Shown piece by piece: positions 3,745-61,119 of a DNA stretch of 64,000 bases. Numbering within the stretch: the stretch's first letter is position 1; each line of letters begins with the position of its first letter. The notes beneath the pieces are model-generated. The model did no database searches. It saw nothing but the letters and a program-made list of their open reading frames with translations, and was not told where the DNA came from. The position numbers and the translations under genes were made by a program. Origin of the DNA: Amia ocellicauda (Eukaryota > Chordata > Actinopteri > Amiiformes > Amiidae); contig NW_027102661.1 in NCBI RefSeq assembly GCF_036373705.1, forward strand, positions 248,001 to 312,000, written 5' to 3'.

Positions 3745-4060
3745 TGACAACGCCGCCTCTTGCTTCAAACGGTTACCGTTGGAGCCTGCTGGTAAAACGG
3801 GCTCAGGCGTTTCAGGTCGGCTAGACTGTGAGATGGCGTCTGAAGTGCCGCGAAAGGATGCCATTTTCACAGACCTGTTTGGCATTGCTAAAGGGCACAT
3901 CAGGACACTTCGGAAACTCTTTCAAAGGCAGGACGCCCTGCGCTCTGACAGTGCCTGCACTTAACCCAACAAGGTGATGCTGAATGGCTTGTTCAAACGG
4001 CTGGTGGTCTTCCGTCACCACCAGACTATGAGAGCTATACTGCGCCTTCAACTACATAAG

Positions 4061-4245
4061 AGTAGATAGTAGGGTTTTTTGGGCGCGGCCTATTTTGTTA
4101 TGACGTATGCCCTAAGCTTATTAATATTCCTACGTCATAATTGGGGGGCGTGATTTTAGGTAGAGTTATTTCCTTAATTATTCCTACGTCATATCCGTCA
4201 GAAAGTGTGCACCCATAAAACCCTGAACAACAAGGCCACCCATAA
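4061..4245 (+). repeat. Left terminal inverted repeat, copy 1
   Basis: This 185-base segment is the reverse complement, with few mismatches, of 45593-45777 at the right end of copy 3. It begins 5'-AG, as Polinton ends do. It contains three TGACGTA motifs (one direct, two inverted), which resemble ATF/CREB sites. Confidence 0.88.
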
Positions 4246-4289
4246 ATACCCCCACCCCTCTGAAGGCAACGCCCCGAAACTCTCCTCTC

Positions 4290-4297
4290 TATTTAAG
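4290..4297 (+). promoter_or_regulatory. TATA-like box of the first early gene, copy 1
   Basis: TATTTAAG lies about 67 bases upstream of the ATG at 4364 and downstream of the ATF-like sites in the terminal repeat. The equivalent box in copy 3 is at 30364-30371. Confidence 0.5.
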
Positions 4298-4363
4298 AAC
4301 CCGCGCTTCTATTAGACAATACCTCTTTAATTCTCAGCTTCTGAAACATCCCGCTTCTTCATC

Positions 4364-4768
4364 ATGTCCAGCGACATCAACATGAAACCCCGCAAGAAAC
4401 AATCCCGGGCAAGGGTTCCTGTACTCACCAATTTGAAGATTGAACGCTCCTGGGTGTTGTTCTGGGGGGCTCGACGGGGTTACCGCTTTAAAAGGGATCC
4501 CAGCTATGTTGGAGTGGAGCTTCTTGCTTTGGGAGAGAAGGAGGGTACGTTGGAACCTTTTGAGACGGTAATTGAATACTCTTATGAGGACTGGTTGAAG
4601 GTGATGGCCTGGAGAGATCTGGGGCTTGTGGATAAGACTCTAGAAGGCTTGCAAGAGGGTCCAAGAGAATGCGAAATGGAGTCTCCGACTCAGGGTTTTG
4701 AAAGGTGTGAATGGGAAAGCTTGCAGAACTACGACAGACGACGTGTGGGGTTATGGAGGGGGGTCTGA
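4364..4768 (+). CDS. Early protein 1, short form (copy 1)
   Basis: Open frame of 134 aa, first gene after the terminal repeat. Its N-terminus is basic (KPRKKQSRAR) and is followed by a block WVLFWGARRGYRFKRDPSYV. I do not recognise the family. The place next to the terminus and the TATA-like box suggest an early regulatory role like that of adenovirus E1A, but no LxCxE motif is visible. The same gene in copy 3 (30438-31148) is 236 aa; the product here is shorter. Confidence 0.6.
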   Translation: MSSDINMKPRKKQSRARVPVLTNLKIERSWVLFWGARRGYRFKRDPSYVGVELLALGEKEGTLEPFETVIEYSYEDWLKVMAWRDLGLVDKTLEGLQEGPRECEMESPTQGFERCEWESLQNYDRRRVGLWRGV

Positions 4769-4871
4769 CGGCTCAGGGGCTACTCTCTTCTAAGAGGGTG
4801 GTGTGTCGTGATGTAGTGAAGAGATAGGATAAAAGGTGCAACAATTCATTCATGGTTTAAAATTAAAGAGA

Positions 4872-5720
4872 ATGTCTTACCCGAAAGCTGCGGACGTCGA
4901 CAGGCTCTACAGGCCTCTTCAAACCCGGGATCACCCCTGGTTCTATTCCCCAGATTTTGTATACACTCTGGAACCCTTTGACTGTGGTTACTCTCCAAGA
5001 CCTCAGACCCCGGTCCCTCAGGACGAAACAACATGCGGTGCGATGGATGTCCAAATGAGTCTCGGGGATCCCCAGCCTCTGGAGCTCATGGAGGGCCTCG
5101 ATTTTGCCGAACTGTCTACCGTCTGTGCGTCTCAGGAGGGGGTCAGTCCAATGGATGGAGAAACACCCCACAAACCACCAGGCGACCCAATGAGCATCGG
5201 ACTGTCCCGGGGGCGTGATGAAGACGCAGGATTTTTGCCCGGGGTATGTGACCAAGTAAGCAGAGTGGTTAAAAGCACCCTGGTGTATATTCTGAGTGCT
5301 CTCATCGACCGAGCTCTGAAAGAAGTCTGTCGGGGGTGTGAAGTGAATCACCCCAGTCAGTTGAGACACAGTTGTTTGTTTGAACCAGACCGTTACTATT
5401 TCCTGTTCTATTTCAACGTGTTTTACAGAAGACTGAACAAACCGTGGCTGAAACCGGCACTAATCAAGGCGCTCTCTTACTCCCACATACATGTCACTGC
5501 GGGACAAGTCCAGAAAATCATAGATGAGATTTTGCTGGAGCTGAAAAAGGAGCCGTTTATAATAGAGAAACTTGGGCAGCTGCTCAATGACCTGGATGAG
5601 CCGAGTAGAAAAACCGCTGGCAAGCTAAAAGCTTATTTCTTCCGTAAAGAAGTTAAAGCTGGGGGCAGCGACGAAGAATTCGACATCTACGCCACTGATT
5701 CAGACTCTGACCTGAACTAA
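4872..5720 (+). CDS. Early protein 2 with Cys/His cluster (copy 1)
   Basis: Frame of 282 aa. The ATG at 4872 is chosen because copies 4 and 5 begin there and upstream codons in the frame are not ATG. The N-terminal half is Pro-rich and probably disordered. The middle carries CRGCEVNHPSQLRHSC, a C-x2-C-x3-H...H-x-C cluster that could bind zinc. A helical region follows (residues about 170-255), then an acidic tail rich in Ser and Asp (DEEFDIYATDSDSD). Function unknown. It sits where adenoviruses carry E1B-type genes, with a TATA-like GGATAAAAGG about 40 bases upstream. Confidence 0.65.
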   Translation: MSYPKAADVDRLYRPLQTRDHPWFYSPDFVYTLEPFDCGYSPRPQTPVPQDETTCGAMDVQMSLGDPQPLELMEGLDFAELSTVCASQEGVSPMDGETPHKPPGDPMSIGLSRGRDEDAGFLPGVCDQVSRVVKSTLVYILSALIDRALKEVCRGCEVNHPSQLRHSCLFEPDRYYFLFYFNVFYRRLNKPWLKPALIKALSYSHIHVTAGQVQKIIDEILLELKKEPFIIEKLGQLLNDLDEPSRKTAGKLKAYFFRKEVKAGGSDEEFDIYATDSDSDLN

Positions 5721-5732
5721 GGGACTTTGAAC

Positions 5733-6125
5733 ATGGGGAATGTTCTGGACTGCTTCTGCAACTGGTTCTGTCATCAACACTCTGCAGCTAACCTGAGAGC
5801 GCTATTACACCATGTGCTTGACAGAAAAGTAGCCAACGCGAGCCTTTTCTCTACAGATTTAACCATCGATGAGGATCAACTTTCAAACCTGGAAAAGTTA
5901 ATGGCTGCTGTAACAAAGACCGGGGGGTACGAACACTGGGATGAAGGGCTCAAGGGGGCCAAGAATGATATTAGGCCATTTCATCAACATCTGTATGACC
6001 TTTTACTGAGCATGTTTAATACACCTCTGTTTACTTTTAAAATAGGTCATATTGTTGTTTTATTTACATATGTAACTGAGGTGTGTGCCTACAAGATAAA
6101 GAAACAGGTATATTTGTTGATATAG
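5733..6125 (+). CDS. Bcl-2-like early protein (copy 1)
   Basis: Frame of 130 aa from the ATG at 5733; the codon upstream in the same frame is TTG. It begins MGNVLDCFC, a typical N-myristoylation site followed by cysteines that could be palmitoylated, so membrane attachment is likely. Near the C-terminus FKIGHIVVLFTYVTEVCAYK resembles the Bcl-2 BH1 segment (NWGRIVALF type). Adenovirus E1B-19K and other viral Bcl-2 proteins block apoptosis at mitochondria, and this gene occupies a similar place. The frame ends shortly after CAG/GTATAT, a possible splice donor, so a BH2 exon may be spliced on. Bcl-2 membership is an inference from one motif. Confidence 0.5.
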   Translation: MGNVLDCFCNWFCHQHSAANLRALLHHVLDRKVANASLFSTDLTIDEDQLSNLEKLMAAVTKTGGYEHWDEGLKGAKNDIRPFHQHLYDLLLSMFNTPLFTFKIGHIVVLFTYVTEVCAYKIKKQVYLLI

Positions 6126-6236
6126 ATCAAGTAACCAATCATCTGATTTCTTTTTGTCTGGACCGTAGAAAAAATTGTTGTGTATGTTATACTTTTCTCA
6201 AATGTCTAAAAAGGGGTATCTGCTCTCCTGAAGTTG

Positions 6237-6242
6237 AATAAA
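6237..6242 (+). terminator. Poly(A) signal AATAAA of the early region, copy 1
   Basis: AATAAA follows the Bcl-2-like gene by about 110 bases and precedes the next promoter by 8 bases. The same pair occurs in all five copies (copy 3: 31857-31862). Confidence 0.5.
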
Positions 6243-6250
6243 AAACCTTG

Positions 6251-6257
6251 TATAAAA
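6251..6257 (+). promoter_or_regulatory. TATA box before the integrase, copy 1
   Basis: TATAAAA lies 41 bases upstream of the integrase ATG at 6298, immediately after the early poly(A) signal. A pyrimidine-poor TTTGACAG just before the ATG could instead act as a weak splice acceptor. In copy 3 the box is at 31871-31877. Confidence 0.5.
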
Positions 6258-6297
6258 ACTTTGCGCATAGTGTGGGTCTGTGTGGTTATTTGACAGA

Positions 6298-7389
6298 ATG
6301 ACTCGGCAAGCTCCCCAAATGCAGGAACTATACTACAACCCAGCCAAGATTGGGGGTTTGGCGGGTAAGAAGGGTTTTCAAAGAGGACTCGCTGAGGCCG
6401 GAGTGAAGGTTAATGATGTGGTTGTTTCAGAATGGTTACGGGAACAAGACGCCTATACCTTACATAAACCTCTCAGGATTAACTTTAAAAGAAACCGCGT
6501 ATATGCAACTGACATAGATTCACAATGGCAAATGGATCTAGTCGATATGTCAAATTTATCAAAACATAACAATGGTCACAAATTGATGTTGATGTGTATC
6601 GATGTGTTATCAAAATATGCCTGGGCTCGCATTCTACATAATAAAACAGGTCGGGCGGTGACAAGGGCCTTTGAGGATATATTGTCCCAGGGTCGATGTC
6701 CTAAAAAACTGCAGACTGATAAAGGAAAAGAGTTTCTCAACAGAGAATTTCAGAATCTACTGAAGAGACACAAAATACATCATTTCACCACCGGTAATGA
6801 GCTTAGGGCATCGGTATTGGAGAGGTTTAACCGCACCATAAAGACCAAAATGTGGAGATATTTTACAGCGGTCAACACGTTCAAGTATTTTGATAAAGTT
6901 CAGGATTTTATCGATGCTTACAACCAAGGGTATCACACCAGTATTAAAATGAAGCCATTAGATGTTGATCAAAGTAATTCTTTTAAGGTCTATAAAAAAT
7001 TATACGGACCATTTATTAAGAAGGGAAAAACTACTTATTAGTTCAACATCGGTGATGTGGTTCGCGTTTCAAAGCTAAGGAGTACTTTTGCCAAAGGTTA
7101 TGAACAAACATTTTCTGACGAATATTTTACAGTTACCGAACAGTTGGCTAGAGACCCCCCCGTGTACCGGTTAAAAGACTATGACAGGGAGGATATAGAA
7201 GGAACGTTTTACGAAGCCGAGTTACAAAAAATTATTGTGGGTAAAGACAGTGTATACAGAGTTGAAAAGATATTAGCTGAAAAAACCCAGAACCGGAAAA
7301 AATATGTGTTGATGAAATGGCTTGGATGGCCTGAAAAGTTCAATAGTTGGGTCCCGGAACAACAGGTTTGCGATATTCAATCCTTATAA
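6298..7389 (+). pseudogene. Polinton integrase with chromodomain (copy 1), broken
   Basis: Retroviral-type DDE integrase (rve fold) that inserts the element. Visible in order: an N-terminal region; the core with WQMDL (Asp about residue 80), LQTDKGKEF (Asp about 141) and LERFNR (Glu about 175); then a C-terminal chromodomain, YRVEKILAE...KWLGWPEKFNSWVP. Chromodomains bind methylated histone tails and may steer integration. Broken once in this copy. Confidence 0.88.
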
Positions 7390-7393
7390 CAAC

Positions 7394-8160
7394 ATGCCCG
7401 CGGGTGTGTTGGGGGCATTACTTTCGATTCTCAAGATGGAATCAGGAGGCTTCTACGTGACTCTACCCAGTAATGCCTCTCTCGATATATATCCTAAAAA
7501 TGAAATATCCAGTTACACGGTACAATTTGGAAAATCTATAGATCTAAGGGGGTCGTGGGAAGTGGGGTTGGCGGAAATACAGTATCCTTACACTTGGGCT
7601 GTTTTACAAGATAAGGATGCCACCTTCGCCATTTTTGATGATGTTAAAAAGAGTCAATGGACATTCACGATACAAGGAGGTTATTATGACAATGTGGATA
7701 GATGAGATGCATAAACAGTTCTCAGAAGGCACCCCCAACATCAAGCTATATTACAACCCTATTAAAAACAGAGTGTACAAGGTGTCAAAACCAGGTATTA
7801 GCATTCAAACCAGCGGCCAACTGGGGCGTATATTTGGGTTCTATTCTGACACAGAGAGCAGGTTCTCAGAAGTGGTGGGGCGGCTTTTACACTCTTTATG
7901 TGTATACGGATATCATAACCCACCAGAGGGTTGGGGATAGTTATGTCCCCCTTTTGAGAAATGTACTTATTAAAGGTAAAAGCAATGACATGGTCACAAT
8001 TACTTATGACAAACCACACTACGTACCAGTCTCAAAGACCCACTTTGACAACATCACGATCGAAGTATAATCGGATCAGAATATCAACGTACCCTTCCGC
8101 TTCGGTAAAGTTAATGTCAAACTACATTTTCGACCCCTGAAACAGTGTGTACATTATTAA
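7394..8160 (+). pseudogene. Penton-type minor capsid protein (copy 1), broken
   Basis: Family of about 250 aa with the signature GGFYVTLPSNASLDIYPKN and SWEVGLAEIQYPYTW, typical of the Polinton minor capsid (single jelly-roll, penton) protein. The start is either the ATG at 7394 or the one at 7436. No copy in this window has an undamaged frame. Confidence 0.7.
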
Positions 8161-8161
8161 A

Positions 8162-8651
8162 ATGGCTACCTCGAGGGGTTATGTAGATCCTAGCGCCTAT
8201 GTGGATTATTACAAGATGCAAGATGGAACGGCTTGCCCGGTATTGTAGGAGCCCCCACAATGTATGGCGCCGGTCGAGGAGGACTCTTTCGTGGTCTCTT
8301 TAGAATGGCCATACCCCTGCTTAAGAGAGGCTTTGCTATAGCCAGACCCCACTTGAAATCAGCGGCTAAAAATATTGTTAGTGACGTGTTCACCAATGTT
8401 ATGAACCGGGCAGCTAGCCATGAGCATCAGGAGGGTTCGGGTCTCATGGTAATGGCGAGGAAGGGGGGTAAAAGAAGAAACAGCATGTGTCCACCAGGGG
8501 GCGACAAAGATCCGTGGCTAACAAAAAACGAAGAATCTCTCATTCTCCAACATATCGTGGAAACACTCGGAGAAGGAAGCAGCACAAGAAAAAACCTGCA
8601 TAAAGAAAGTATCAAAGAAAGAAAAATAGAGCCTCAGGATACATCTTTTAA
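8162..8651 (+). pseudogene. pVI-like virion protein (copy 1), broken
   Basis: Starts one base after the penton stop. See the open copy at 24145-24633 for domains. Broken here. Confidence 0.65.
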
Positions 8652-8653
8652 AC

Positions 8654-9961
8654 ATGTCTTTTGTCCACAGTCTATCGGAAGAATGCGTCAAATCAGAACT
8701 GGATCTGTTTACAGTTCCATACACTCAAACGAGTATAGATAAGAGCATATATGTAGAGATTCCCCCTCTTTCTGCAATTTCAGACACGGCCCCTCTGGAG
8801 TTTTTTATAGCTGGCAATGGCGAGGATTATATTGATTTGAATAACACATTTATTTTAATGAACTGTAAAGTGACTGATGAGGATGGCGATGCAATCGAGA
8901 AGACGACCAACGCTGGGGTCATCAATTACCCGGTGGCCACCATGTTTTCACAGGTGGATGTGACCCTGGGAGATCGGCTCATTAGTCAATGCAGCAATAC
9001 TTACCCCTATAGAGCCATGATGGAGTGTATCCTTAATTATAGTGAGGAGACCCTAAGCAAACAGTTCAGCCCCGGCCTTTTCTTCAAAGACATCCCGGAA
9101 GCTATGGACGACAAGGATCCAGAGGGACTCAATAAGGGTTTGCAAAAAAGAACGGCCTCTTCAACAGAAGGGAGGACCTTTGAGCTAATGGGGCATATCC
9201 ATGCAGACATATTTTTCCAAGAAAAACTCATGCTCAACGGGGTAGACATTAAAATTAAAATGATCCGTAGTAAAAGTGCTTTTTGTCTGATGACCCCTGA
9301 TACTGAAAAATATAAACTGACCATATTATCGGCCTCGCTGTTTGTGAAAAAAGTGTCCGTCTCCCCGGCGGTTAAACTAGGACACGCGCAGGCGTTAATG
9401 ACGGCAAACGCCAAGTACCCGATCGAAAGAGTCTATATGAAAGTCCACAGTATCCCCGCAGGGACACGGGTGATGAACCAGGAAAATCTGTTTCTAGGAC
9501 AGCTCCCAAAACAGGTTATTATAGGTCTCGAAGATAATGATGCATTTACCGGGGTTTACAACAAGAACCCCTTTAACTTTAAACATTATAACGCGGAATT
9601 TATAGCGTTGTACGTCGATGGTGTGCAGGTTCCATCCAGACCTTTTCAACCTGACTTTGAAAACGGCAATGCGGTTCGTGAATATGACAGTCTAGTACTG
9701 GCTACGGGTCGCCATCTCAAGGATCAAACTCTGCTGATCGATCGCCGGGAATACTGCAGCGGTTACACCCTGTACGGTTTCAACCTGACCCCTGACGAAG
9801 AGTGTGGACAACATTTTTCACTGATGAAGACGGGCAATATGCGTTTGGAGATGCGTTTCAAGCAGCCTCTACCACGCACTGTAAATATGGTCGTGTATGC
9901 AGTGTTTGACAACATTATTGAGGTGAATCAGAGGAGAAACGTTCTGTATGATTATTATTAA
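8654..9961 (+). CDS. Major capsid protein, double jelly-roll (copy 1)
   Basis: Open frame of 435 aa, the usual length for a Polinton major capsid protein. The N-terminal part shows the conserved block EIPPLSAISDTAPLEFFIAG and NGEDYIDLNNTFI. MCP of this family forms hexon-like trimers with two jelly-roll domains (the adenovirus/PRD1 lineage), here inferred from the family and not from a fold calculation. It starts 2 bases after the pVI-like gene and ends one base before the protease ATG, so these genes probably share a transcript. Confidence 0.88.
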   Translation: MSFVHSLSEECVKSELDLFTVPYTQTSIDKSIYVEIPPLSAISDTAPLEFFIAGNGEDYIDLNNTFILMNCKVTDEDGDAIEKTTNAGVINYPVATMFSQVDVTLGDRLISQCSNTYPYRAMMECILNYSEETLSKQFSPGLFFKDIPEAMDDKDPEGLNKGLQKRTASSTEGRTFELMGHIHADIFFQEKLMLNGVDIKIKMIRSKSAFCLMTPDTEKYKLTILSASLFVKKVSVSPAVKLGHAQALMTANAKYPIERVYMKVHSIPAGTRVMNQENLFLGQLPKQVIIGLEDNDAFTGVYNKNPFNFKHYNAEFIALYVDGVQVPSRPFQPDFENGNAVREYDSLVLATGRHLKDQTLLIDRREYCSGYTLYGFNLTPDEECGQHFSLMKTGNMRLEMRFKQPLPRTVNMVVYAVFDNIIEVNQRRNVLYDYY

Positions 9962-9962
9962 A

Positions 9963-10520
9963 ATGAAGACCAGAGAGCTCAACCACATCATGAATGCCCT
10001 GGCCGGCTCACGGAAACTGTTTCAAGGAGTCTACGCCTGCGATCAGCTGCCTAAATTTAAGATCAAGAATTTACCTGCAATGTACATAATCAACACACAC
10101 CCTAAAAATATGCCCGGAGAACATTGGCTGGCTATTTATCTAAGGGAGGACCACCGTGGTGAATTTTTTGATTCCTATGCAAACCCCCCGGATTTCAGAC
10201 CTTTCCCTCGGAAGATCAATAACTTTCTGCTCAACAACTGTCAAGAAACCATTTACAGCGGTCGTCAAGTACAAAGTCTTCAGACCTTCACTTGTGGTCA
10301 ACACTGTGTGTTTTTCTTATATCATAGATCTAAAGGAAGGTCATACCCCGATATTATGGCCTTGTACAGTGAGGATTTAGGCCAAAATGATAAAAAAGTG
10401 GCAGAGTTTGTCAGGACACTGTGGACCCCCCCTTATAACACAATGACTTACGACCCTAGCCAGCCGTGTATACAGATGGGGTGTTCTTGTGAGGATTTTA
10501 AAAGATGTCATGCGTGTTAA
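9963..10520 (+). CDS. Adenain-type cysteine protease (copy 1)
   Basis: Open frame of 185 aa. It shows the adenain catalytic set in order: His54 in GEHW, Asp70 in FFDSY, Gln104 and Cys111 in TCGQHC. The Gln-Cys spacing of seven and the position of His54 match adenovirus protease (His54, Glu71, Gln115, Cys122). Adenain matures capsid and core proteins inside the particle, with pVI-derived peptide as cofactor, and a pVI-like gene lies two genes upstream. The cysteine-rich C-terminus (GCSCEDFKRCHAC) is an extra feature. Confidence 0.9.
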   Translation: MKTRELNHIMNALAGSRKLFQGVYACDQLPKFKIKNLPAMYIINTHPKNMPGEHWLAIYLREDHRGEFFDSYANPPDFRPFPRKINNFLLNNCQETIYSGRQVQSLQTFTCGQHCVFFLYHRSKGRSYPDIMALYSEDLGQNDKKVAEFVRTLWTPPYNTMTYDPSQPCIQMGCSCEDFKRCHAC

Positions 10521-10699
10521 GGTGAAAAAATAATGAAAACAGCCTTTGAATCATTAGTTTTGTTTTAATTCAACACAATTCTTATACAAAGCAGGGGTTA
10601 TGGTATAAATAAATGTACAACATTTGAAAAATAAAAAATAAAAATAAAAAATTGTTTGTCGGGTCATTATTTACAGGGGAGACAAATAAAAACATGAGA
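10521..10699. terminator. Convergent gene end region with poly(A) signals
   Basis: About 180 bases between the rightward protease and the leftward genes. It is A/T-rich with A-rich runs near 10625-10655. AATAAA at 10608-10613 fits the 3' end of the rightward late transcript. In copy 3, TTTATT at 36138-36143 gives AATAAA on the minus strand for the leftward genes. Confidence 0.5.
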
Positions 10700-11443
10700 T
10701 TAATAAGCTTCCCAACGATGGATAGATCCTGAGGATGGTCGCTCAGCACGGTCAGAGTAATGAGATATCGGAGTCAGATCAGGCTCCACCTCTTTACACA
10801 GACGGATTTTTTGTCGCGTTTCCTGGTTAGGAACTGTTGATTGGGGCATGTTCAGACAGGCCATCGCCTGTAGGAAAGCATTCCAGCCTACAGGTCGGCG
10901 ACTATCGGGTACCTTATTAGTGCTAGTGACACTCTTCAACAAATCAAACATGTGTGAACCTTTGATCAGTTGTCCTTTAAAAACAAATTCACCCTGTTCA
11001 TTCCAAGCCGTTACCCGCGGTTTCTGAAGCATTTTGTGCAGGATATATTCTGCATGTCTTTTGCTTCTGGCCGGCATGTTTCTCAAAACATCCGTTACAA
11101 CATCTCCCTCTGAACTCTCAACAGGTTCGGTCACCGCAACATCTTTATCAACCGTTCCCCCCGCATCAGCCCCAGAACCATTTTCTTGAGAGGCCATGGT
11201 TAAAGTTAAAATGTTTTGATCTTTTTCACCCTGTCTAACCAGACGGAGGTAGCGCTGTAACGTGTTGGTATACAACTGGGCTTTGGAATACTGATTTAAA
11301 TCGGCCCTGGCCTGTATAGCTTTCATTTCAGCGTCCAGGTTGTTTTCGGCCGTTTGTCTAATGGGCTCTGGCCCGACAACATTTTTTCTCAGTTTCTCAA
11401 GCTGCTCCTGAGGGATCAAAAACATTTTCTGAGCATATTCCAT
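10700..11443 (-). CDS. Conserved Polinton protein, GSHMFDLL type (copy 1)
   Basis: Open frame of 247 aa. The N-terminal third is predicted helical and charged, the middle is Gly/Val/Glu-rich and probably disordered. The C-terminal part has AWNEQGEFVFKGQLIKGSHMFDLL and GWNAFLQAMACLNMP. Similar blocks (G-E-x...G-S-x2-x-D-L-L... and F-x2-A-L-x3-N-x-P) recur in Polinton proteins of unknown role, by recollection rather than by search. It lies 2 bases after the small basic protein, probably co-transcribed; a virion role is a guess. Confidence 0.6.
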   Translation of the reverse strand: MEYAQKMFLIPQEQLEKLRKNVVGPEPIRQTAENNLDAEMKAIQARADLNQYSKAQLYTNTLQRYLRLVRQGEKDQNILTLTMASQENGSGADAGGTVDKDVAVTEPVESSEGDVVTDVLRNMPARSKRHAEYILHKMLQKPRVTAWNEQGEFVFKGQLIKGSHMFDLLKSVTSTNKVPDSRRPVGWNAFLQAMACLNMPQSTVPNQETRQKIRLCKEVEPDLTPISHYSDRAERPSSGSIHRWEAY

Positions 11444-11445
11444 TA

Positions 11446-11781
11446 TTAACCCACTCTGGAAGCTAGAAGACTGGTTAGGAAAGGCACGGCTATGCTCAAC
11501 AGCGGTCCTATAAAACCCCCGGTTTGATTAATCTTCTTTCTTTTTCTTTTAATAGAATACTTCTTATTAGCGATGATCTTGATAACCGCTTTTTGTTTTT
11601 TGAGTTTAGAATGTTGAGAAGGGGTTAGGGGTATATTACCGCGTAAGATGTTAAAAGCTATTTCACACAGGGTCTCGATCAAATCCGAGGGGGCCCCTGC
11701 CAGCACAGCTTTCCTATGGCGCGGGCTCCTCTCAAATAACATTTGCAAAAGCGGCAGATTTCTTTTAATCCGAACAGACAT
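11446..11781 (-). CDS. Small basic virion-type protein (copy 1)
   Basis: Open frame of 111 aa. A helical N-terminal half (LPLLQMLFE...RKAVLAGAPSDLIETLCEIAFNIL) is followed by a strongly basic segment (KKYSIKRKRKKIN), then GGFIGPLLSIAVPFLTSLLAS. This pattern, helical domain then basic linker then GGF-x-G-x-LL tail, is common in small proteins of animal Polintons. A DNA-binding or core role is inferred from charge. Confidence 0.6.
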   Translation of the reverse strand: MSVRIKRNLPLLQMLFERSPRHRKAVLAGAPSDLIETLCEIAFNILRGNIPLTPSQHSKLKKQKAVIKIIANKKYSIKRKRKKINQTGGFIGPLLSIAVPFLTSLLASRVG

Positions 11782-11787
11782 TCTTAT

Positions 11788-12459
11788 TTATTTCCTTTTC
11801 TTTAGCACATAGACTGCCGGCCAATCGGGCGGGCACAAACCTGTTCTGAGGCGAAAGTCTTCTGGGGTTTGTGCTTTTAAGTCCGCAATCAAGTACCCGT
11901 AGGGTTTTTTGGTGGCATCCTCAAATGCCTCCAAAAAGAACTTGGTCTGGTTAGGGTACATTTGACGAGCCAAGACGGTGACCTGTAGTTTATCTCTGGG
12001 GTTTTTAAAAAGAATTATATAATTGGCATTTAAATTAATAGTGCGGCTTTTTTTACCTTGAAAAAATAGATTTTGAACTAAATAAATAATACTTTAATTC
12101 CTATGATGAGTGTACTTTGTGAAAGCTTTTTCCACTTCACTGTTGTCACCGGCCTGCTCCATCTGGTCATCAAGGATCACTAGGTTAGTTTGACCGGGCG
12201 GGAACAAGTCATCGCCACACAACGAGGCGGGGAGACCTTGCACAAATTTCAGATTATTTTTTTTCGAAGCCAAATCATCGTAGAGAGGTTGCCAGCAAGA
12301 GTAACACCACACTATGTTGTCAAGAGCTTGGGACACGGTTGCGTCCACATCTTCTATGATGTTCTTTATAAGATAGCTCTTCCCCGAATTGGAGGGACCG
12401 GCTATAATACAGGAGAAAGGGTGTTGAAGTCTGTTATCAAAACCACCGCTAATATCCAT
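11788..12459 (-). pseudogene. FtsK/HerA-type packaging ATPase (copy 1), broken
   Basis: DNA-packaging ATPase of the A32/HerA-FtsK class. Walker A is AGPSNSGKS (residues 20-28) and Walker B NLVILDD (about 92-98). The start codon overlaps the end of PolB within TATGGATATTAG. Broken about once in this copy; the frame in copy 3 is open. Confidence 0.85.
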
Positions 12460-21695: not shown

Positions 21696-21707
21696 GGGAC
21701 TTTGAAC

Positions 21708-47978: not shown

Positions 47979-47990
47979 GGGACTTTGAAC

Positions 47991-48382: not shown

Positions 48383-48554
48383 ATCAAGTAACCAATCATC
48401 TGATTTCTTTTTGTCTGGACCGTAGAAAAAATTGTTGTGTATGTTATACTTTTCTCAAATGTCTAAAAAGGGGTATCTGCTCTCCTGAAGTTGAATAAAA
48501 AACCTTGTATAAAAACTTTGCGCATAGTGTGGGTCTGTGTGGTTATTTGACAGA

Positions 48555-49646: not shown

Positions 49647-49650
49647 CAAC

Positions 49651-50427: not shown

Positions 50428-50428
50428 A

Positions 50429-50916: not shown

Positions 50917-50918
50917 AC

Positions 50919-52210
50919 ATGTCTTTTGTCCACAGTCTATTGGAAGAATGCGTCAAATCAGAACTGGATCTGTTTACAGTTCCATACACTCAAACGAGTA
51001 TAGATAAGAGCATATATGTAGAGATTCCCCCTCTTTCTGCAATTTCAGACATGGCCCCTCTGGAGTTTTTTATAGCTGGCAATGGCGAGGATTATAATGA
51101 TTTGAATAACACATTTATTTTAATGAACTGTAAAGTGACTAATGAGGATGGCGATGCAATCGAGAAGACGGCCAACGCTGGGGTCATCAATTACCCGGTG
51201 GCCACCATGTTTTCACAGGTGGATGTGACCCTGGGAGATCGGCTCATTAGTCAAAGCAGCAATACTTACCCCTATAGAGCCATGATGGAGTGTAAACTTA
51301 ATTATAGTGAGGAGACCCTAAGCAAACAGTTCAGCCCCGGCCTTTTCTTCAAAGACAACCCGGAAGCTATGGACGACAAGGATCCAGAGGGACTCAATAA
51401 GGGTTTGCAAAAAAGAACGGCCTCTTCAACAGAAGGGAGGACCTTTGAGCTAATGGGGCATATCAATGCAGACATATTTTTCCAAGAAAAACTCATGCTC
51501 AACGGGGTAGACATTAAAATTAAAATGATCCGTAGTAAAAGTGCTTTTTATCTGATGACCCCTGATACTGAAAAATATAAACTGACCATATTATCGGCCT
51601 CGCTGTTTGTGAAAAAAGTGTCCGTCTCCCCGGCGGTTAAACTAGGACACGCGCAGGCGTTAAGTACCCGATCGAAAGAGTCTATATGAAAGTCCACAGT
51701 ATCCCTGCAGGGACACGGGTGATGAACCAGGAAAATCTGTTTCTAGGACAGCTCCCAAAACAGGTTATTATTGGTCTCGTGGATAATGATGCATTTACCG
51801 GGGTTTACAACAAGAACCTTTTTAACTTTAAACATTATAACGCGGAATTTATAGCGTTGTACGTCGATGGTGTGCAGGTTCCATCCAGACCTTTTCAACC
51901 TGACTTTGAAAACGGCAATGCGGTTCGTGAATATTACAGTGTAGTACTGGCTACGGGTCGCCATCTCAAGGATCAAACTCTGCTGATCGATCGCCGGGAA
52001 TACTGCAGCGGTTACACCCTGTACGGTTTCAACCTGACCCCTGACGAAGAGTGTGGACAACATTTTTCACTGATGAAGACGGGCAATATGCGTTTGGAGA
52101 TGCGTTTCAAGCAGCCTCTACCACGCACTGTAAATATGGTCGTGTATGCTGTGTTTGACAACATTATTGAGGTGAATCGGAGGAGAAACGTTCTGTATGA
52201 TTATTATTAA
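50919..52210 (+). pseudogene. Major capsid protein gene (copy 4), broken
   Basis: Recognisable over its length; one break. Confidence 0.83.
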
Positions 52211-52211
52211 A

Positions 52212-52768
52212 ATGAACACCAGAGAGCTCAACCACATCATGAATGCCCTGGCCGGCTCACGGAAACTGTTTCAAGGAGTCTACGCCTGCGATCAGCTACC
52301 TAAATTTAAGATCAAGAATTTACCTGCAATGTACATAATCAACACACACCCTAAAAATATGCCCGGAGAACATTGGCTGGCTATTTATCTAAGGGAGGAC
52401 CACCGTGGTGAATTTTTTGATTCCTATGGAAACCCCCCGGATTTCAGACCTTTCCCTCGGAAGATCAATAACTTTCTGCTCAACAACTGTCAAGAAACCA
52501 TTTACAGCGGTCGTCAAGTACAAAGTCTTCAGACCTTCACTTGTGGTCAGCACTGTGTGTTTTTCTTATATCATAGATCTAAAGGAAGGTCATACCCCGA
52601 TATTATGGCCTTGTACAGTGAGGATTTAGGCCAAAATGATAAAAAAGTGGCAGAGTTTGTCAGTACACTGTGGACCCCCCTTATAACACAATGACTTACG
52701 ACCCTAGCCAGTCATGTATACAGATGGGGTGTTCTTGTGAGGATTTTAAAAGATGTCATGCATGTTAA
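52212..52768 (+). pseudogene. Protease gene (copy 4), broken
   Basis: Catalytic motifs GEHW, FFDSY and CGQHC visible; one break towards the end. Confidence 0.83.
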
Positions 52769-52947
52769 GGTGAAAAAATAATGAAAACAGCCTTTGAATC
52801 ATTAGTTTTGTTTTTATTCAAAACAATTCTTATACAAAGCAGGGGTTATGTTATAAATAAATGTACAACATTTGAAAATAAAAAAAAATAAATAAAAAAT
52901 TGTTTGTCGGGTCATTATTTACAGGGGAGACAAATAAAAACATGAGA

Positions 52948-53691
52948 TTAATAAGCTTCCCAACGATGGATAGATCCTGAGGATGGTCGCTAAGCACGGT
53001 CAGAGTAATGAGATATCGGAGTCAGATCAGGCTACACCTCTTTACACAGATGGATTTTTTGTCGCGTTTCCTGGTTAGGAACTGTGGATTGGGGCATGTT
53101 CAGACAGGCCATCGCCTGTAGGAAAGCATTCCAGCCTACAGGTCGGCGACTCTCGGGTACCTTATTAGTCCTATTGACACTCTTCAACAAATCAAACATG
53201 TGTGAACCTTTGATCAGTTGTCCTTTAAAAACAAATTCACCCTGTTCATTCCAAGCCGTTACCCGCGGTTTCTGAACCATTTTGTGCAGGATATATTCTG
53301 CATGTCTCCTGCTTCTGGCCGGCATGTTTCTCAAAACATCCGTTACAACATCTCCCTCTGAACTCTCAACAGGTTCGGTCACCGCAACATCTTTATCAAC
53401 CGTACCCCCCGCATCAGCCCCAGAACCATTTTCTTGAGAGGCCATGGTTAAAGTTAAAATGTTTTGATCCTTTTCACCCTGTCTAACCAGACGGAGGTAA
53501 CGCTGTAACGTGTTGGTATACAACTGGGCTTTGGAATACTGATTTAAATCGGCCCTGGCCTGTATAGCTTTCATTTCAGAGTCCAGGTTGTTTTCGGCCG
53601 TTTGTCTAATGGGCTCTTGCCCGACAACATTTTTTCTCAGTTTCTCAAGCTGCTCCTGAGGGATCAAAAACATTTTCTGAGCATATTCCAT
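52948..53691 (-). pseudogene. Conserved Polinton protein, GSHMFDLL type (copy 4), broken
   Basis: Same blocks as 10700-11443; one break. Confidence 0.58.
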
Positions 53692-53693
53692 TA

Positions 53694-54029
53694 TTAACCC
53701 ACTCTGGAAGCTAGAAGACTGGTTAGGAAAGGCACGGCTATGCTCAACAGCGGTCCTATAAAACCCCTGGTTTGATTAATCTTCTTTCTTTTTCTTTTAA
53801 TAGAATACTTCTTATTAGCGATGATCTTGATAACTGCTTTTTGTTTTTTGAGTTTAGAATGTTAAGAAGGGGTTAGGGGTATATTACCGTGTAAGATGTT
53901 AAAAGCTATTTCACACATGGTCTCGATCAAATCCGAGGGGGCCCCTGCCAGCACAGCTTTCCTATGGCGCAGGCTCCCCTCAAATAACATTTGCAAAAGT
54001 GGCAGATTTCTTTTAATCCGAACAGACAT
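53694..54029 (-). pseudogene. Small basic virion-type protein gene (copy 4), broken
   Basis: Homologue of 11446-11781 with one break. Confidence 0.56.
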
Positions 54030-54035
54030 TCTTAT

Positions 54036-54707
54036 TTATTTCCTTTTCTTTAGCACATACACTGCCGGCCAATCGGGCGGGCACAAACCTGTTCTGAGGC
54101 GAAAGTCTTCTGGGGTTTGTGCTTTTAAGTCCGCAATCAAGTACCCGTAGGGTTTTTTGGTGGCATCCTCAAATGCCTCCAAAAAGAACTTGGTCTGGTT
54201 AGGGTACATTTGACGAGCCAAGACGGTGACCTGTAGTTTATCTCTGGGGTTTTTAAAAAGAATTATATAATTGGCATTTAAATTAATAGTGCGGCTTTTT
54301 TTACCTTGAAAAAATAGATTTTGAACTAAATAAATAATACTTAAATTCCTATGATGAGTGTACTTTGTGAAAGCTTTTTCCACTTCACTGTTGTCACCGG
54401 CCTGCTCCATCAGGTCATCAAGGATCACTAGGTTAGTTTGACCGGGCGGGAACAAGTCATCGTCTTACAACGAGGCGGGGAGACCTTGCACAAATTTCAG
54501 ATTATTTTTTTTCGAAGCCAAATCATCGTAGAGAGGTTGCCAGCAAGAGTAACACCACACTATGTTGTCAAGAGCTTGGGACACGGTTGCGTCCACATCT
54601 TCTATGATGTTCCTTATAAGATAGCTCTTCCCCGAATTGGAGGGACCAGCTATAATACAGGAGAAAGGGTGTTGAAGTCTGTTATCAAAACCACCGCTAA
54701 TATCCAT
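54036..54707 (-). pseudogene. Packaging ATPase gene (copy 4), broken
   Basis: Walker A and B motifs both visible; one break. Confidence 0.83.
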
Positions 54708-55758
54708 AAGGCAGAGTGGTATAATCAGTCTTCAACACTCCTTTATTGTACACCACCCTGAACCGTTTGTTTAGTGATCTATTTTCCAACGTGTACTCCT
54801 TTTTATTGCGATAGATCTGATTTCCGGCTGTAATAATCTCACGAGGAGGCGCGTCTTTCTCGGTTACAAAACTTTCTACCAGGGTCGTCAGAGACTTGAT
54901 GTTAATGAGCTTGTTGTTACAATGGTTCAGAGTGAAACCCTTAACTTTCATACAGGTCTTACCCGCAGCCGTTCTGTATGCGTCTTAGGACCCCCTGAAA
55001 CAAACTCCACTATGTGGTCCTGAGGATCTAGTTCGCTTGTTAACTCCCCAAGGTAGTCCCCGAGGGGAGGGACCCAATCCCCTGGCCTGGTGACAAAGAT
55101 TACAGAGTCAGAATCATGATAGAGTGTGCGTTCCTGCAACTGATCCATTAAGTTGTACAGTTCAAGCCGGGCGTAAGCCGTGGTAAAAACCGCTATGAAA
55201 ACATTAACGTTCCCCTGTTTGGTGGGGAAATCTTTAGGGGCCCTCCACTGGACCTGTGCCACGTGGTCATTTAAGAATTGAAAGTGTGATACTGCATGTT
55301 GTTTGGAAAACATAAATTCTATAAACTGTTCAGGGGTTTTAATCAAGGTTGTGTTTAGACGGTAATTTCTTTCCCCAAACTTACCCCACAGACTGTTTAA
55401 AATCAGTTTGGACATTTGTCTCTTGGCGGGGTTTACAGTTATGTTCCTGCAACTTGGTGATGTCTGAAAAGGCAACCATCTGTTGAGAGTTTAAGCCAGC
55501 CCTCTGATGAAGCGTTAAAGCCTCTTGCAGAGCTTGGGGTTCAGGCATGTCGGGGGTGAGTAGTTTTATTAAACTGTAAGCAAAACAGAGCTTATTGTCC
55601 CCACTGGAACTCACCACTAATTGCCTGAGCTTGGTCCTAATTATGTCGTTCTTCAAGCATTTCGACAGTCTTCTAAGCGCCCCACCCTCAGGGTTACGAA
55701 CCACATTCATTACCAGAGACAGACTTTCATCAGCTAAGATGGCTGCGTTACTTTGCAA
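54697..55758 (-). pseudogene. PolB short remnant (copy 4)
   Basis: Only about 1.06 kb is left of a 3.3-kb gene. Motif B (KLILNSLWGKFGE) and the motif C region are present, as is the very N-terminus; the exonuclease domain is not seen. Confidence 0.82.
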
Positions 55759-56516
55759 TAACGCTTCGATTTTAGCCAGACATCTAAATTATCTCCACTC
55801 AGCATTACAGATAGGTTGCTAAACAAATCATCCCCTCTGAGTTCTAACTGTACAACATCTCGAGGTCTGACCCTTTCAGCAACCTGTTCAAGCATTTTCT
55901 GCAAAGCCTCGTGTATGTTGACAAATATTTCTGCATAATTGTCACAATTTAAAAGTTCTGCAAAATTAAAACACTGAATCATTTCAAAATTGTTATAGGC
56001 CGGTCTATCTATAATCACGGGATCACTGGTACTCTTGGACACATCATCATTTTGAACAAAGCCTTCACCCCTACATTCTCACAGAGCATGTCCTCCACAG
56101 CCTTATCAGTCTCAGAACCCTCCACATTCCGAACACCCCCACTGCTGACATCTACAAAACCCCCTTTTTGAGGAGGCTCATTTAAAGCCTGTAAAAGTCC
56201 TTCAAAGATATCCAAGACCCTCCTCTATAGTGATGGCTGCTTCTGCCGCCATCCTGTGTTCTAATTGTCTCAAATCATTTATAAAAGGGGCAGAATTTGG
56301 TTGGGGTAGCTCCTCCAAAGCCTCCACCATTTCAAACAAATCGGGGTGAACTAGGGGGTGAACCTCTATAAGCGCTACCGGTGGGAGGTGGTTATTTAGA
56401 TCATTGACCATCTGTAACAGGTCGGGGTTCACCGGTAAGTCTGTTAATTCACATTCTATCGGTGGTAATTGGGGGTTATTTAAATCATTTATCATTTGTA
56501 ATAGTTCCAGGTTCAT
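55734..56516 (-). pseudogene. LLQM-x-NDLNN repeat protein gene (copy 4), broken
   Basis: The three N-terminal repeats are intact; about two breaks further on. Confidence 0.48.
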
Positions 56517-56699
56517 TGGGACATCAGAGGAGTTCACAACAGGGCCGGGGATGTTCTCTCGGGAAGGTCTTTTTGGGGCCCTAGCTTGTTCATAATCCTT
56601 TAGTTTGTGAGTTCTTTTACCAAGTCAGGAAATTTTTTAATTTATTTTTTATTTTTCCAACAACCCACAATAGTAAGGCGTTTTGTGTCTATTAAAACA

Positions 56700-57301
56700 T
56701 TAAATACGGTACAATTCGTTAGTAAGGGTATTAATAAGGGTGTTTTGGCTCTCTATCACCAGGTTTTGCCCCACTAACACAAGTCTTTGATTTTGTAACA
56801 AAGTATGTAGCAACTCATGCCGACTTTCAGGAAGTAGCTCCGGGGGCTGGTGGCCTGGCTCAGCTTCAAAGGATGGTCGCTCCGGTAAATCTCGGTCGAA
56901 GGAGGCAGGGAGCGAGCGTATACTCATGGACGGAGACCAAGAAGGCCTTTGCGGTGACACCCTGGCCAAGCACGGGGTACTGTTCCGCGTTTCTGTAGCC
57001 AAGAAACGGGTCTGGGGGGACGATGTTGAAACCAGGCCGTCGTTGGGTGGTGTGACCGCCCTGACTGACGGCGACCCCTGAGGTTGTTGGATGCCTGTAT
57101 TTGTTCCGCCCGACAATGCGGCGGGCTGAATCTGGGGTGTTGAATTACCCCCAGAAGGCTGTGGCCTGAGTAGATGTTGGGGGGTCTCCAAGACCACCGT
57201 GGGGGATCCTCTCGGTGATCTCACCGGGGAAGATGTTTGATCCCACTTAGACGGGGTAATTGTCCTCAATAGCTCATCCACAGAATGAATATCCCAAGAG
57301 T
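56700..57301 (-). CDS. Ser/Pro-rich protein, probable last exon (copy 4)
   Basis: Open like 16744-17345, with the same acceptor-like 5' border. Confidence 0.48.
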
Positions 57302-59313
57302 CTTGGGAAGAATAAAAATATACATTACATTTACATCTTTAAACGGCGACAGAAATCAAATTTAAAACAACATGTCCAGGACATTCAAAACCTTTAGCTT
57401 TTTTAGACCTTTGAAAATAGCCTTAGACATTCACTACAACGCCTTATTATTTACAGACAATATATTTATTAGGACTTGATAATAAATGTAAAACAGAGAA
57501 GCCGCTGTAAATAAACTGTTTCTTAAATGTTTCTTTAAAAACTGTAATATTGTTAATAAAACACACACACACACAACATCATTTCATTTTTAAACGAACC
57601 TTCCAAGTGTAAACGCTTCCTGATCCCGGGACTTCCTGTTTCACAAACGTTTTCACGATCTTTTTAAATATTAAATACAATGAACACCTTCAAGTCTTTT
57701 CCTACAACCACTTTAAAACAGAAGTATAATAGCGGGAGATAAGCCAAACAACTTACTAAACCCTTTCGGACGGCTTTACTTCCTAACCAGACGGTACGGC
57801 AATCGGTCATTTCTAAACACGTTCCCCAGAAACAAGCCTAGACCTGTCCGGACTTCTAAAGATCTTTCCCAGAACCCCCCGCCCTACAGGAAACGGGCAC
57901 CCATCGCTTAAATATTAGCCCTCAACGGGCAAACAAAGCCCTTTTAAAAACATTAAAGTTTGAAAGATCTTACTTACCTCCACAGAATAATCGTTTCTTA
58001 AGTTTTTCGGCTGGTTTAGCTTTTTGCACCGCTGTGAAGGTAAGAGACATGTTTAACCTTTAACCACACCGCTTTATAAAAAGCTTTAACCTCTTACAGG
58101 CTGCAGATATATACTCACAGCTATCAGATACCGGGGCTGACGGCCTTTCAGATTCTTGAAAGGTTACGGTTCTCGAAGGTAAAACGAAACAAGCCCTCGA
58201 TGTGGAAGGCCTTTCGTTGTCTCGAACCACGTTTCTTAATACTGTTAGACAGGATAATTTTTTAAAATTAACAAAACTGGACTCAAACATCTTACAGAAA
58301 CGTTATACAAACAAACAGGGGTTTAGTTCTTACCCGGTCGGCAGACAGCCTGTCTAGGGACAACCACTTCTCTTGGTCGATCCTCGGAGACATTAATCAC
58401 AGGCCTTTCGATAGTTTCTGTGTAATTAAAGAGACCGGCATTAATATATATTAAAATGTTTTCATAACTCTAATGAGCCACTTCAAAACCACACACACCC
58501 ATACATAAGAACCCATGAGCGCAAACACAAAAATCTTACCGTTGTTGTTCCAGATGATCTCCTCAGCGTTGGGAATTAACTCCTGTTGACTGGCTGAAAA
58601 ATAATTTTACAGAACTTAAAACAGATGTTATAGCCTTATTTACAATACATGCACACAACACGCTCTGAGTCAGTGAAAATAATCTGAAGACTTACCAAAA
58701 AACTCGTTTAAATCGAAGTCGCTGATGTTGTTTCCGGACACTGTTGATCTTTAGTCTTAAATCGAAAGGTCAGTATGAGTCTGTCGAGCTGAAGACCAGA
58801 CCTTCATACTTATACTGATGTCCACATGCCGGATCTTCTTGTAAGGCATTGTTCTGGTCTGGCCTTTGTGCCGCCCTGTTACCAATTAACATATCAAAAC
58901 CAACCAATAAAATGACACTGCATCAAATTTCAAATAGAAACCAAGATGGAGACGATCTCTCTCCTCTCTACTCTAAACTTTTATTAGAACCTTTTGGTCT
59001 CTCAAAAAAACATTTTTAAGCATCAAGACCTATAGTCAACAACCACTAAGAATATTTCAGGCCTTTATAAGCGCTAAAAAACAACCTGAGCCTAGAAAAT
59101 AAGCATAAAGATCTAAAATAACTAGCGCTTTTACAGTGATTTTTTTTTTTTTTTTAATAGCGATGCTTTGTTTGGTATTAAACAAGTCACAAACTACTCA
59201 GAACAGCTTTTATCCCCGCAAAAGAGATATTTGGGTTTATTTTACAAAGCTTATAAATTATATAGGTTAAAAGTATTCTGAATGTTTTGATACCACACGC
59301 CATACCTACTGTT
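57302..59313 (-). other. Leader/intron region of the leftward transcripts (copy 4)
   Basis: Counterpart of 17346-19358. Exon-like stretches 58290-58119 and 58031-57978 keep the same splice-type borders. No long frame; T-run near 59140-59155. Confidence 0.4.
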
Positions 59314-59595
59314 GTCTTCTACACCTTACGGTAGCAACAAATCTAACTACTGCTTTACTTTAACAATAATAATGACGGCGACCACGATGACAACAAGAAC
59401 AACAACAAGAACAACAACAACAACATCATCAGATTTTAATTAAAAGTGGCTACACCAGCGTTTACAATTTCAACCTGTCTACAGACGGACGCTCTGAGTG
59501 CACCGATTTCGGGCACTCCAATGAAGAAAAGCCACCCACCGCCTCCGGGGAACCACGAGGGCAAGCAGGACGAAAAGGGCCGGCCCACAGCAGGC

Positions 59596-59668
59596 TGTTT
59601 CCGCCCGGTTTCGAACCGGGGACCTTTCGCGCGTTAGGCGAACGTGATAACCGCTACACTACGGAAAC
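59596..59668 (-). tRNA. tRNA-Val: tRNA-Val (AAC)
   Basis: Anticodon AAC; complete acceptor stem and B-box; TTTT about 20 bases downstream. Confidence 0.85.
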
Positions 59669-60209
59669 TGACAACGCGGCGTCTTGCTTGAAACGGTTAT
59701 CATTGAAGCCTGCTGGTAAAACGGGCTCAGGAATTTCAGGTCGGCTAGACTGTGAGATGGCGTCTGAAGTGCCGCGAAAGGATGCCATTTTCACAGACCT
59801 GTTTGGCATTGCTAAAGGGCACATCAGGACACTTCGGAAACTCTTTCAAAGGCAGGACGCCCTGCGCTCTGACAGTGCCTGCACTTAGCCCAACAAGGTG
59901 ATGCTGAATGGCTTGTTCAAACGGCTGGTGGTCTTCCGTCACCACCAGACTATCAGAGCTATACTGCGCCTTCAACTACATAAGAGTAACAGCAATGTCG
60001 CCGATCCTGCTACGGTCGTATTGTAACAGTAACAACATGTATCGATTTTAAAAGTGTCAGTTCCAGCGCCTCGCAAAGCTACCCTTCTGCGATCGATTGT
60101 TCTCAAGGTCAGGATTTCTTGCCACTCCGAGGAAGAGAAAACGACGGCCGGCCTTGGGGCAGGGAGATGAGGACGGGTAACACGGTACTGGCACGCGTGC
60201 ACCGCGGGT

Positions 60210-60282
60210 TGTTTCCGCCCGGTTTCGAACCGGGGACCTTTCGCGTGTGAGGCGAACGTGATAGCCACTACACTACGGAAAC
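60210..60282 (-). tRNA. tRNA-Val: tRNA-Val (CAC)
   Basis: Anticodon CAC; the full acceptor stem, T-arm and B-box match the vertebrate consensus, so this is one of the best-preserved CAC genes here. Confidence 0.88.
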
Positions 60283-60934
60283 CAACCCGTCCTGGCGTTT
60301 CGAATGGCTTCCATCGAAGCAGGCTGGTAAAACGCGCACAGGCATTTCCCGTGGGCCTGCCTGTGAGATAAAGGTTTCTATTTTCACTGACCTATTTTGC
60401 ATTGCTCAAAGGCACATCAGGACACTTTGGAAACTCTTTCAAAGGAAGAACGCCCTGAGCTATGACAAGACTTACACTTACCCCAACAAGGTGATGCTCA
60501 ATGGCTTGTTCAAACAGCTGCTGCTCGTCTTGTGCCACCATCAGACAATCACAGAGCTATTGTGCCTTCTACACCTTACGGTAGCAACAAATCTATCTAC
60601 TGCTTTACTTTAACAATAATAATGACAGCGACCACGACGACAACAAGAACAACAAGAACAACAGCAAGAACAGCATCATCATCATCATCATCATCAGATT
60701 TTAATTAAAAGTGGCTACACCCGCGTTTACAATTTCAACCTGTCGACGGACGGACGCTCTGAGTGCACCGATTTCGGGACACTTAGGAAACTCTTTCAAA
60801 GGCAGGTCGCCCTGCGCTCTGACAGTGCCTGCACTTAGCCCAACAAGGTGATGCTGAATGGCTTGTTCAAACGGCTGGTGGTCTTCCGTCACCACCAGAC
60901 TATCAGAGCTATTCTGCGCCTTCAACTACATAAG

Positions 60935-61119
60935 AGTAGATAGTAGGGTTTTTTGGGCGCGGCCTATTTTGTTATGATGTATGCCCTAAGCTTATTAATA
61001 TTCCTACGTCGTAATTGGGGGGCGTGATTTTAGGTAGAGTTATTTCCTTAATTATTCCTACGTCATATCCGTCAGAAAGTGTACACCCATAAAACCCTGA
61101 ACAACAAGGCCACCCATAA
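60935..61119 (+). repeat. Left terminal inverted repeat, copy 5
   Basis: Same 185 bases as the other left ends; two of the three TGACGTA-type motifs are altered (TGATGTA, TACGTCG). Confidence 0.87.

Follow-up and report, generated by a model that had tools for sequence, protein, structure and literature searches.

Probable multiplication of a Polinton by a tRNA-Val gene array in Amia ocellicauda: evidence from shared junctions

Results

The locus and its virus-like element

We analysed a 64,000-nucleotide stretch of the Amia ocellicauda genome (the window; contig C14, positions 248,001-312,000, in an assembly of 988 Mb and 385 contigs) that is part of a tandem tRNA-Val gene array, interrupted by five stretches of one virus-like element, a Polinton. 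A preliminary description of this DNA had proposed that the element inserted once and was then multiplied together with the array. ARAGORN found 13 tRNA-Val genes in the window, every one on the minus strand. Rfam returned only 3 tRNAs for the whole window at its gathering threshold, and with laxer filters 5 tRNAs for positions 1-4200, namely the 4 ARAGORN genes and one weak additional tRNA at 445-517. The basic unit of the array is a dimer of about 1.3 kb, in which an AAC module, the spacer S1a, the sequence CATAAG, a CAC module and the spacer S1b follow one another (these module and spacer names were coined in the present analysis). One tRNA gene, at 28145-28217, is chimeric: its anticodon is AAC and one side is CAC-type sequence, which to the eye looks like an intragenic exchange. 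The CAC unit to the right of copy 2 also holds a Tc1-like transposon (26496-27680), with inverted ends, flanking TA and a broken reading frame.

The complete element measures 15.6 kb. Terminal inverted repeats (TIRs) of 185 bp, a 6-bp target-site duplication (TSD), an rve integrase, a type B DNA polymerase and an adenovirus-type protease are all present, and these sequence features identify it as a Polinton/Maverick of the vertebrate adintovirus type. Relatives of its proteins include those of a Pimephales minnow adintovirus (52% identity); identity to DNA polymerase relatives reached 65%. The capsid-family protein gave 55-72% identity across the 120 matches listed, and up to 66% with named vertebrate F54H12.2-like proteins. 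We take the F54H12.2-like name to denote the Polinton capsid, a double jelly-roll major capsid protein. The fold predicted for this protein had a mean predicted local distance difference test score (pLDDT) of 55.5, a model too poor for use. The protease matched PF00770 with E=4.1e-05 (23.8 bits against a cut-off of 21.3), with no individual stretch significant alone. Positions of all features are given in Table 1.

Table 1. Host array, insertion sites, element copies and coding regions, in window positions
Feature	Position	Strand	Remarks
Host tRNA-Val array, left block	1..4060		AAC and CAC modules; empty sites 828 and 2798
Host array block	19359..20035		AAC module and spacer S1a; CATAAG at its end (20030-20035)
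Host array block	26301..30134		CAC, chimeric and AAC tRNA genes; empty site 28876; terminal CATAAG (30129-30134)
Host array block	45778..46799		two CAC genes; empty site 46363
Host array block	59316..60934		AAC, empty site 59979, CAC, AAC-less unit, CATAAG (60929-60934)
CATAAG preceding left end of copy 1	4055..4060	+	
CATAAG after right end of copy 3	45778..45783	+	second copy of the 6-bp TSD
Empty site CATAAG	828..833	+	
Empty site CATAAG	2798..2803	+	
Empty site CATAAG	28876..28881	+	
Empty site CATAAG	46363..46368	+	
Empty site CATAAG	59979..59984	+	
Truncation junction, copy 1/host	19351..19377	+	identical string 189 times in assembly
Truncation junction, copy 4/host	59308..59334	+	same string as that of copy 1
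Polinton copy 1	4061..19358	+	left end kept, right end gone; internal deletion (junction 4733/4734) common with copy 2
Polinton copy 2	20036..26300	+	left end kept, right part gone at copy-3 position 5749; internal deletion (20708/20709) as in copy 1
Polinton copy 3	30135..45777	+	sole window copy with both ends; 15,643 bp
Polinton copy 4	46800..59315	+	left end gone (copy-3 position 763); internal deletion; right truncation as in copy 1
Polinton copy 5	60935..64000	+	left end; continues past window edge
Left TIR, copy 3	30135..30319	+	185 bp, 98.4% identical to right TIR
Right TIR, copy 3	45593..45777	-	
Integrase frame	31918..32970	+	rve and chromo (PF00665 1.6e-10, PF00385 4.6e-08)
Capsid-family protein region	34263..35531	+	F54H12.2-like
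Adenovirus-type protease region	35521..36093	+	Pfam match on the corresponding frame of copy 1
Candidate packaging ATPase (A32/FtsK-like)	37360..38022	-	weak Pox_A32 match, E=0.0052, below cut-off
Type B DNA polymerase region	38015..39796	-	PF03175 3.1e-32, on copy 1

One insertion site and a shared truncation

Each of the four left ends in the window (4061, 20036, 30135 and 60935) comes immediately after CATAAG; all four share one spacer submodule and one orientation, as the preliminary description had stated. Behind the sole right end (45777) stands CATAAG, after which the uninterrupted-site sequence continues. Five empty sites in the window read CATAAG-A(G/T)TAACAG. Assuming uniform placement within the array, the chance that four ends fall on one base of the ~1.3-kb unit in one orientation is about 6e-11. 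Two further structures, which the preliminary description did not contain, are common to different copies: the internal deletion of copies 1 and 2, and the joint at which copies 1 and 4 are truncated. No microhomology was seen at the truncation joint, so that a repeated independent origin of this joint is unlikely.

Copying of the junctions across the assembly

We then counted exact junction strings in the whole assembly, where each control string gave 0 matches. CATAAG joined to the left end occurred 280 times, the right end joined to CATAAGAGTAACAG 158 times, and the truncation junction of copies 1 and 4 189 times. Since transposition does not make joints of the latter kind, its recurrence indicates copying by the array. 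Positions were listed for the first 100 matches in contig order of each string. Among them, left junctions fell on contigs C11-C13, right junctions on C11-C15 and truncation junctions on C11-C14, with a uniform orientation within each contig; the extension of the array over several contigs also goes beyond the preliminary description.

An exact period of 49,621 bp was observed on C14, the contig of the window. It separates left ends at 376251, 425872 and 475493 and truncation junctions at 404446, 454067 and 503688, and appears in the right junctions as two series of three. Samples of 2 kb taken 20 kb and 34 kb into this period were 100% identical, and the 1,500 host bp before the left ends were 99.3-100% identical among seven C14 loci, window copy 3 included. 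The 189-fold truncation junction and the period uphold the earlier proposal that one insertion was multiplied with the array, as opposed to a series of independent hits.

The 10,099-bp interval between copies 2 and 3 was found again twice on C11 and twice on C12. Strings of successive spacings, such as 15968-9788-8971-9628, were common to C11, C12 (reversed) and C13; the comparison of C11 with C12 gave a run of five, whereas 500 shuffles gave a run of four in 5 cases and a run of five in 0. The contigs C11-C15 probably represent one locus or a few. Common spacing strings are also what alternative haplotypes would show, and identical samples at a 49.6-kb period could reflect a duplicated assembly path, in which case the array would be real but smaller, with C11-C15 repeating the same locus or misjoined. 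Such an artefact is very improbable: divergence among the five window copies is 1.3-2.2%, in addition to shared breakpoints they show private ones, and among the matches listed C11 alone carries 43 left junctions over about 1.02 Mb, at many different spacings.

The 25 bases at the end of the element, a string that catches left ends as well as right ends of identical letters, occurred exactly 725 times in the assembly (control 0). Left ends preceded by CATAAG therefore make up 280 of the 725 exact ends of the family. The right end of copy 3 deviates at position 11 and so goes unmatched. If the right ends of the array resemble that of copy 3 and the other 445 ends are mostly two per copy, roughly half of the family copies with an exact left end would sit in this array.

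The family elsewhere in the genome

Members of the same family with other flanks, for which the preliminary description had suggested a search, were found. For 30 ends located elsewhere (L009-L038), 14 pairings were tried and 12 had matching 6-mers; one of these (L010/L012) repeats the flank of L011 and was excluded, leaving 11 end pairs. They carry nine different 6-bp duplications, and CATAAG is in none. The integrase therefore does not need the CATAAG site and is not site-specific. ARAGORN, run on 26 of the 30 flank loci, detected no tRNA, and Rfam, run on six loci (three of the 30), gave one weak tRNA match (31 bits), which lies in L010 some 1.4 kb away from the end.

These results bear on the possibility that the integrase prefers the tRNA spacer, the copies having entered CATAAG one by one. 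The Dada elements, DNA transposons of fish whose targets are tRNA-Val genes and whose TSDs measure 6-7 bp, are on record (PMC8869645; of this and the other papers cited here, excerpts were used). The first four bases of the element, AGTA (4061), equal the four host bases that follow CATAAG in most empty units (e.g. 2804), a match probably due to chance, and copy 5 occupies a different unit type. We nevertheless consider repeated insertion of this kind extremely improbable. The end pairs elsewhere and the near absence of tRNA matches from their flanks speak against it, independent hits give neither a 189-fold deletion junction nor a 49,621-bp period, and for the bulk of the copies the replicated truncation already speaks against it.

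Three groups of copies outside the tRNA-Val array deserve mention. Members of the family form another row at C6:49,471,361-49,647,731 (L056-L058, L063-L072), which has the duplication CCTGTG and shared flanks (7 of 7 left and 3 of 3 right flanks compared). ARAGORN on ten of its loci and Rfam on three identified no tRNA or other RNA in the spacer, the flank being partly N. The second group lies at C1:22.66-23.06 Mb (L015-L017, L020-L023), where four left flanks are 99.8-100% identical over 1.5 kb and three end pairs have the duplication ACTGAC; to judge by these flanks, it is another insertion copied along with its surroundings. At C1:64.32-64.35 Mb (L029-L032), a pair of ends duplicating CACATT lies inside a pair duplicating CCTGCT, that is, a nested insertion.

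Divergence, mosaicism and trees

For 32 of the 36 pairs of host modules the difference was 4-8% (full range 1.2 to 7.5% for AAC and 3.1 to 8.0% for CAC modules), and the element copies of the window differed by 1.25-2.17%. When the colinear blocks 2272-4733 and 28352-30807 were compared, 92 of 1578 sites differed in the host part beyond 200 bp from the site and 11 of 873 in the last 200 bp plus the element (p=6e-9). These values are most simply read as showing an array that predates the insertion and whose flanks were reshuffled. Between copies 1 and 2 the flanks match completely over about 210 bp; beyond that, 24 of 459 sites differ and the flanks belong to different array lineages, which indicates several rounds of exchange or conversion. 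Of the earlier claim that element and array were amplified as one unit, copying by the array stands, and the single unit is an oversimplification; as judged from these comparisons, the amplification is multi-step and mosaic.

Two structural characters, the internal deletion common to copies 1 and 2 and the truncation common to copies 1 and 4, point to a grouping ((copies 1,2), copy 4), followed by 3 and 5; the truncated region is lost from copy 2. The same order, ((((c1,c2),c4),c3),c5), was obtained in a tree of about 3 kb of the left end. This tree included 18 copies from elsewhere, three of them from the C6 row and two from the C1 22.66-23.06 Mb group, and was built by a method that ignores recombination. 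In this tree, of the kind that the preliminary description had called for, the five window copies came together with moderate support, namely a Shimodaira-Hasegawa-like approximate likelihood ratio test (SH-aLRT) value of 88 and an ultrafast bootstrap (UFBoot) value of 89. The three sampled copies of the C6 row clustered at 100/100. One site of the alignment separates all five window copies from all 17 other copies covering it. Among 12 chosen alternative placements, 11 were rejected by the approximately unbiased (AU) test.

Shared variants within the window point to exchange between copies. We counted 22 sites with shared variants, against 1.08 expected from parallel change on a star tree (2000 simulations, maximum 6). 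Thirteen unite copies 1 and 2, one is compatible with this grouping, and eight conflict with it, indicating exchange or conversion between copies. Seven of these eight lie in the interval 3.7-5.8 kb of copy 3. One conflicting site coincides with a stop in the capsid frame common to copies 2 and 3, as we found on matching the two observations. A different last step, in which pieces of the array re-insert from extrachromosomal circles or by other template-driven means, would fit the uniform orientation within contigs and the identity of whole blocks. We find it unlikely; no data ask for it, and the conflicting sites indicate exchange or conversion between copies. Unequal crossing over with conversion is the most likely process.

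Several observations weigh against multiplication of one insertion by the array, or against parts of it. The contigs may include alternative haplotypes or assembly errors, and the flank of one C15 locus (L001) is only 94-95% identical over 1,062 bp. Conversion that homogenises the long element could make it look younger than the array. Neither similarity in S1a by itself nor the low divergence of the final 158 bp ahead of the site is discriminating: over these 158 bp two empty units match the flank of copy 3 exactly, and low divergence of this segment was dropped as proof. The left flank of copy 5 is of the AAC-less unit type to within at least ~130 bp of the site; counting one shared A/T variant brings this limit down to about 20 bp, but that variant may be a coincidence given the frequent A:T changes. 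Independence of the flanking units, named in the preliminary description as what would speak against a single insertion, was thus found in part for copy 5. The placement of c1-c4 with the L046 group and c5 outside was not rejected (AU p=0.061), so that the tree, taken by itself, leaves a little room for copy 5 to have arisen separately. The alternatives were rejected in 9 of 12 cases by the Kishino-Hasegawa (KH) test and in only 4 of 12 by the stricter Shimodaira-Hasegawa (SH) test, a shorter tree (1.24 kb) supported the window clade with a UFBoot value of only 75, and five of just 18 outside copies come from two duplicated groups. In the right-hand region, finally, copy 1 is closer to copy 3 than to copy 4 despite the truncation common to 1 and 4, which requires unequal rates or conversion.

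Decay of the copies

Each of copies 1-4 has stops, frame breaks or truncations of its own, and copy 5, which is cut by the window edge, has its own deletion. Private substitutions in the gene frames amounted to 100 missense, 46 silent and 11 nonsense changes, against 108.5, 40.0 and 8.6 expected, and look unselected; this tally covers private changes only and is blind to shared lesions. In the three proteins compared, nine in-frame stops fell on eight residues, seven of them affected in a single copy and one in copies 2 and 3. As no stop common to every copy was found in these proteins, the inserted element may have been functional, and the idea that the ancestor was already dead at insertion was dropped. 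Function of the element is unnecessary for copying by the array.

The private substitutions of copies 1-5 contain an excess of A:T to T:A changes (67 of 292) with no clear context, to which copy 5 contributes just 1 of 21. Mutation bias or assembly error may be responsible.

Discussion

Very probably, a single Polinton inserted into the tRNA-Val array and was then multiplied by recombination of the array, without transposing. The copies share one site and one TSD next to empty sites of the same sequence, the family shows no site preference, and junctions identical by the hundreds, a replicated deletion, a long period and mosaic exchange between copies accompany them. A full-length element would have integrated once in a spacer of an already old tRNA-Val(AAC)/tRNA-Val(CAC) array, duplicating CATAAG. 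Unequal exchange between paralogous units, together with gene conversion, would then have duplicated stretches that hold both tRNA units and the element. Deletions that arose in some copies would themselves have been duplicated, and larger blocks (49.6 kb on C14) would later have been amplified nearly unchanged, giving a composite tRNA-Polinton higher-order array on several contigs of about 1 Mb.

Junction counts, the replicated deletion and the exact period thus make it possible to read that the host gene array, and not the integrase, very probably made most copies of one insertion. Copy counts of Polintons can accordingly overstate transposition, and looking for a replicated deletion junction is an easy way to recognise passive copying in any assembly of long reads. 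What the locus offers to tRNA biology is a composite array, at least hundreds of kb per contig, whose tRNA-Val units evolve together with a virus-like element. It is quite possible, and we suggest it tentatively, that Polintons in general have a second way to multiply, namely capture by host tandem arrays, most copies of the family lying here within host higher-order repeats (the tRNA-Val array and the C6 row) and the element now being a structural part of a tRNA satellite of megabase size.

Comparison with known systems

Among the literature covered (titles and abstract openings, with subscription papers mostly outside), we found no report of a Polinton amplified in a tRNA array, and the text seen of a paper on pike 5S ribosomal DNA (PMC5437419) makes no mention of Polintons or Mavericks. 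Vertebrate Mavericks are described as having 6-bp duplications and mostly low copy numbers, with unexplained amplifications in some hosts (PMC8097293). The present element resembles them and the adintoviruses in its long inverted repeats, 6-bp TSD, integrase with rve and chromodomain, type B polymerase, adenovirus-type protease and probable capsid-family protein; it is unlike the mostly low-copy Mavericks in that 280 of 725 exact ends come from one array-copied insertion. Sequence-specific integration was not seen for virophages of the EMALE (endogenous mavirus-like element) group (PMC8547959), and Polinton-like viruses of cryptophytes are reported to have no tRNA gene within 1 kb (PMC12220804).

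Dada transposons also combine fish tRNA genes with 6-7 bp TSDs, but they target the interior of the gene and are described as inserting repeatedly and independently (PMC8869645). The present family, with its nine other TSDs and no ARAGORN tRNA in 26 flanks, does not return to one target in the Dada manner. Tandem tRNA units as such are familiar: the human tRNA repeat at 1q23.3 is unstable in copy number (PMC4041453) and zebrafish and stickleback commonly have clusters of tRNA genes (PMC2888827), the excerpts of both papers mentioning no virus-like element within the repeated unit.

In Drosophila, arrays of R1 expand through unequal exchange (PMC12400953). R1 and the present Polinton thus agree in that unequal exchange at a tandem locus drives copy number, and differ in that R1 is target-site specific and the Polinton is not. 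The closest precedent is the human endogenous retrovirus HERV-K111/K222, a provirus that inserted once and was then copied via recombination or conversion of the surrounding pericentromeric repeats; K111 copies are recognised through a common duplication, GAATTC, and flank, and recombinants occur (PMC4425911). K111/K222 is a retrovirus in centromeric repeats on many chromosomes, whereas the window holds a Polinton in a tRNA array that repeats at an exact long period and has multiplied a deletion junction. Like the K111 copies, the Polinton copies of the window share flank and TSD and recombine; they also replicate a junction that transposition does not make.

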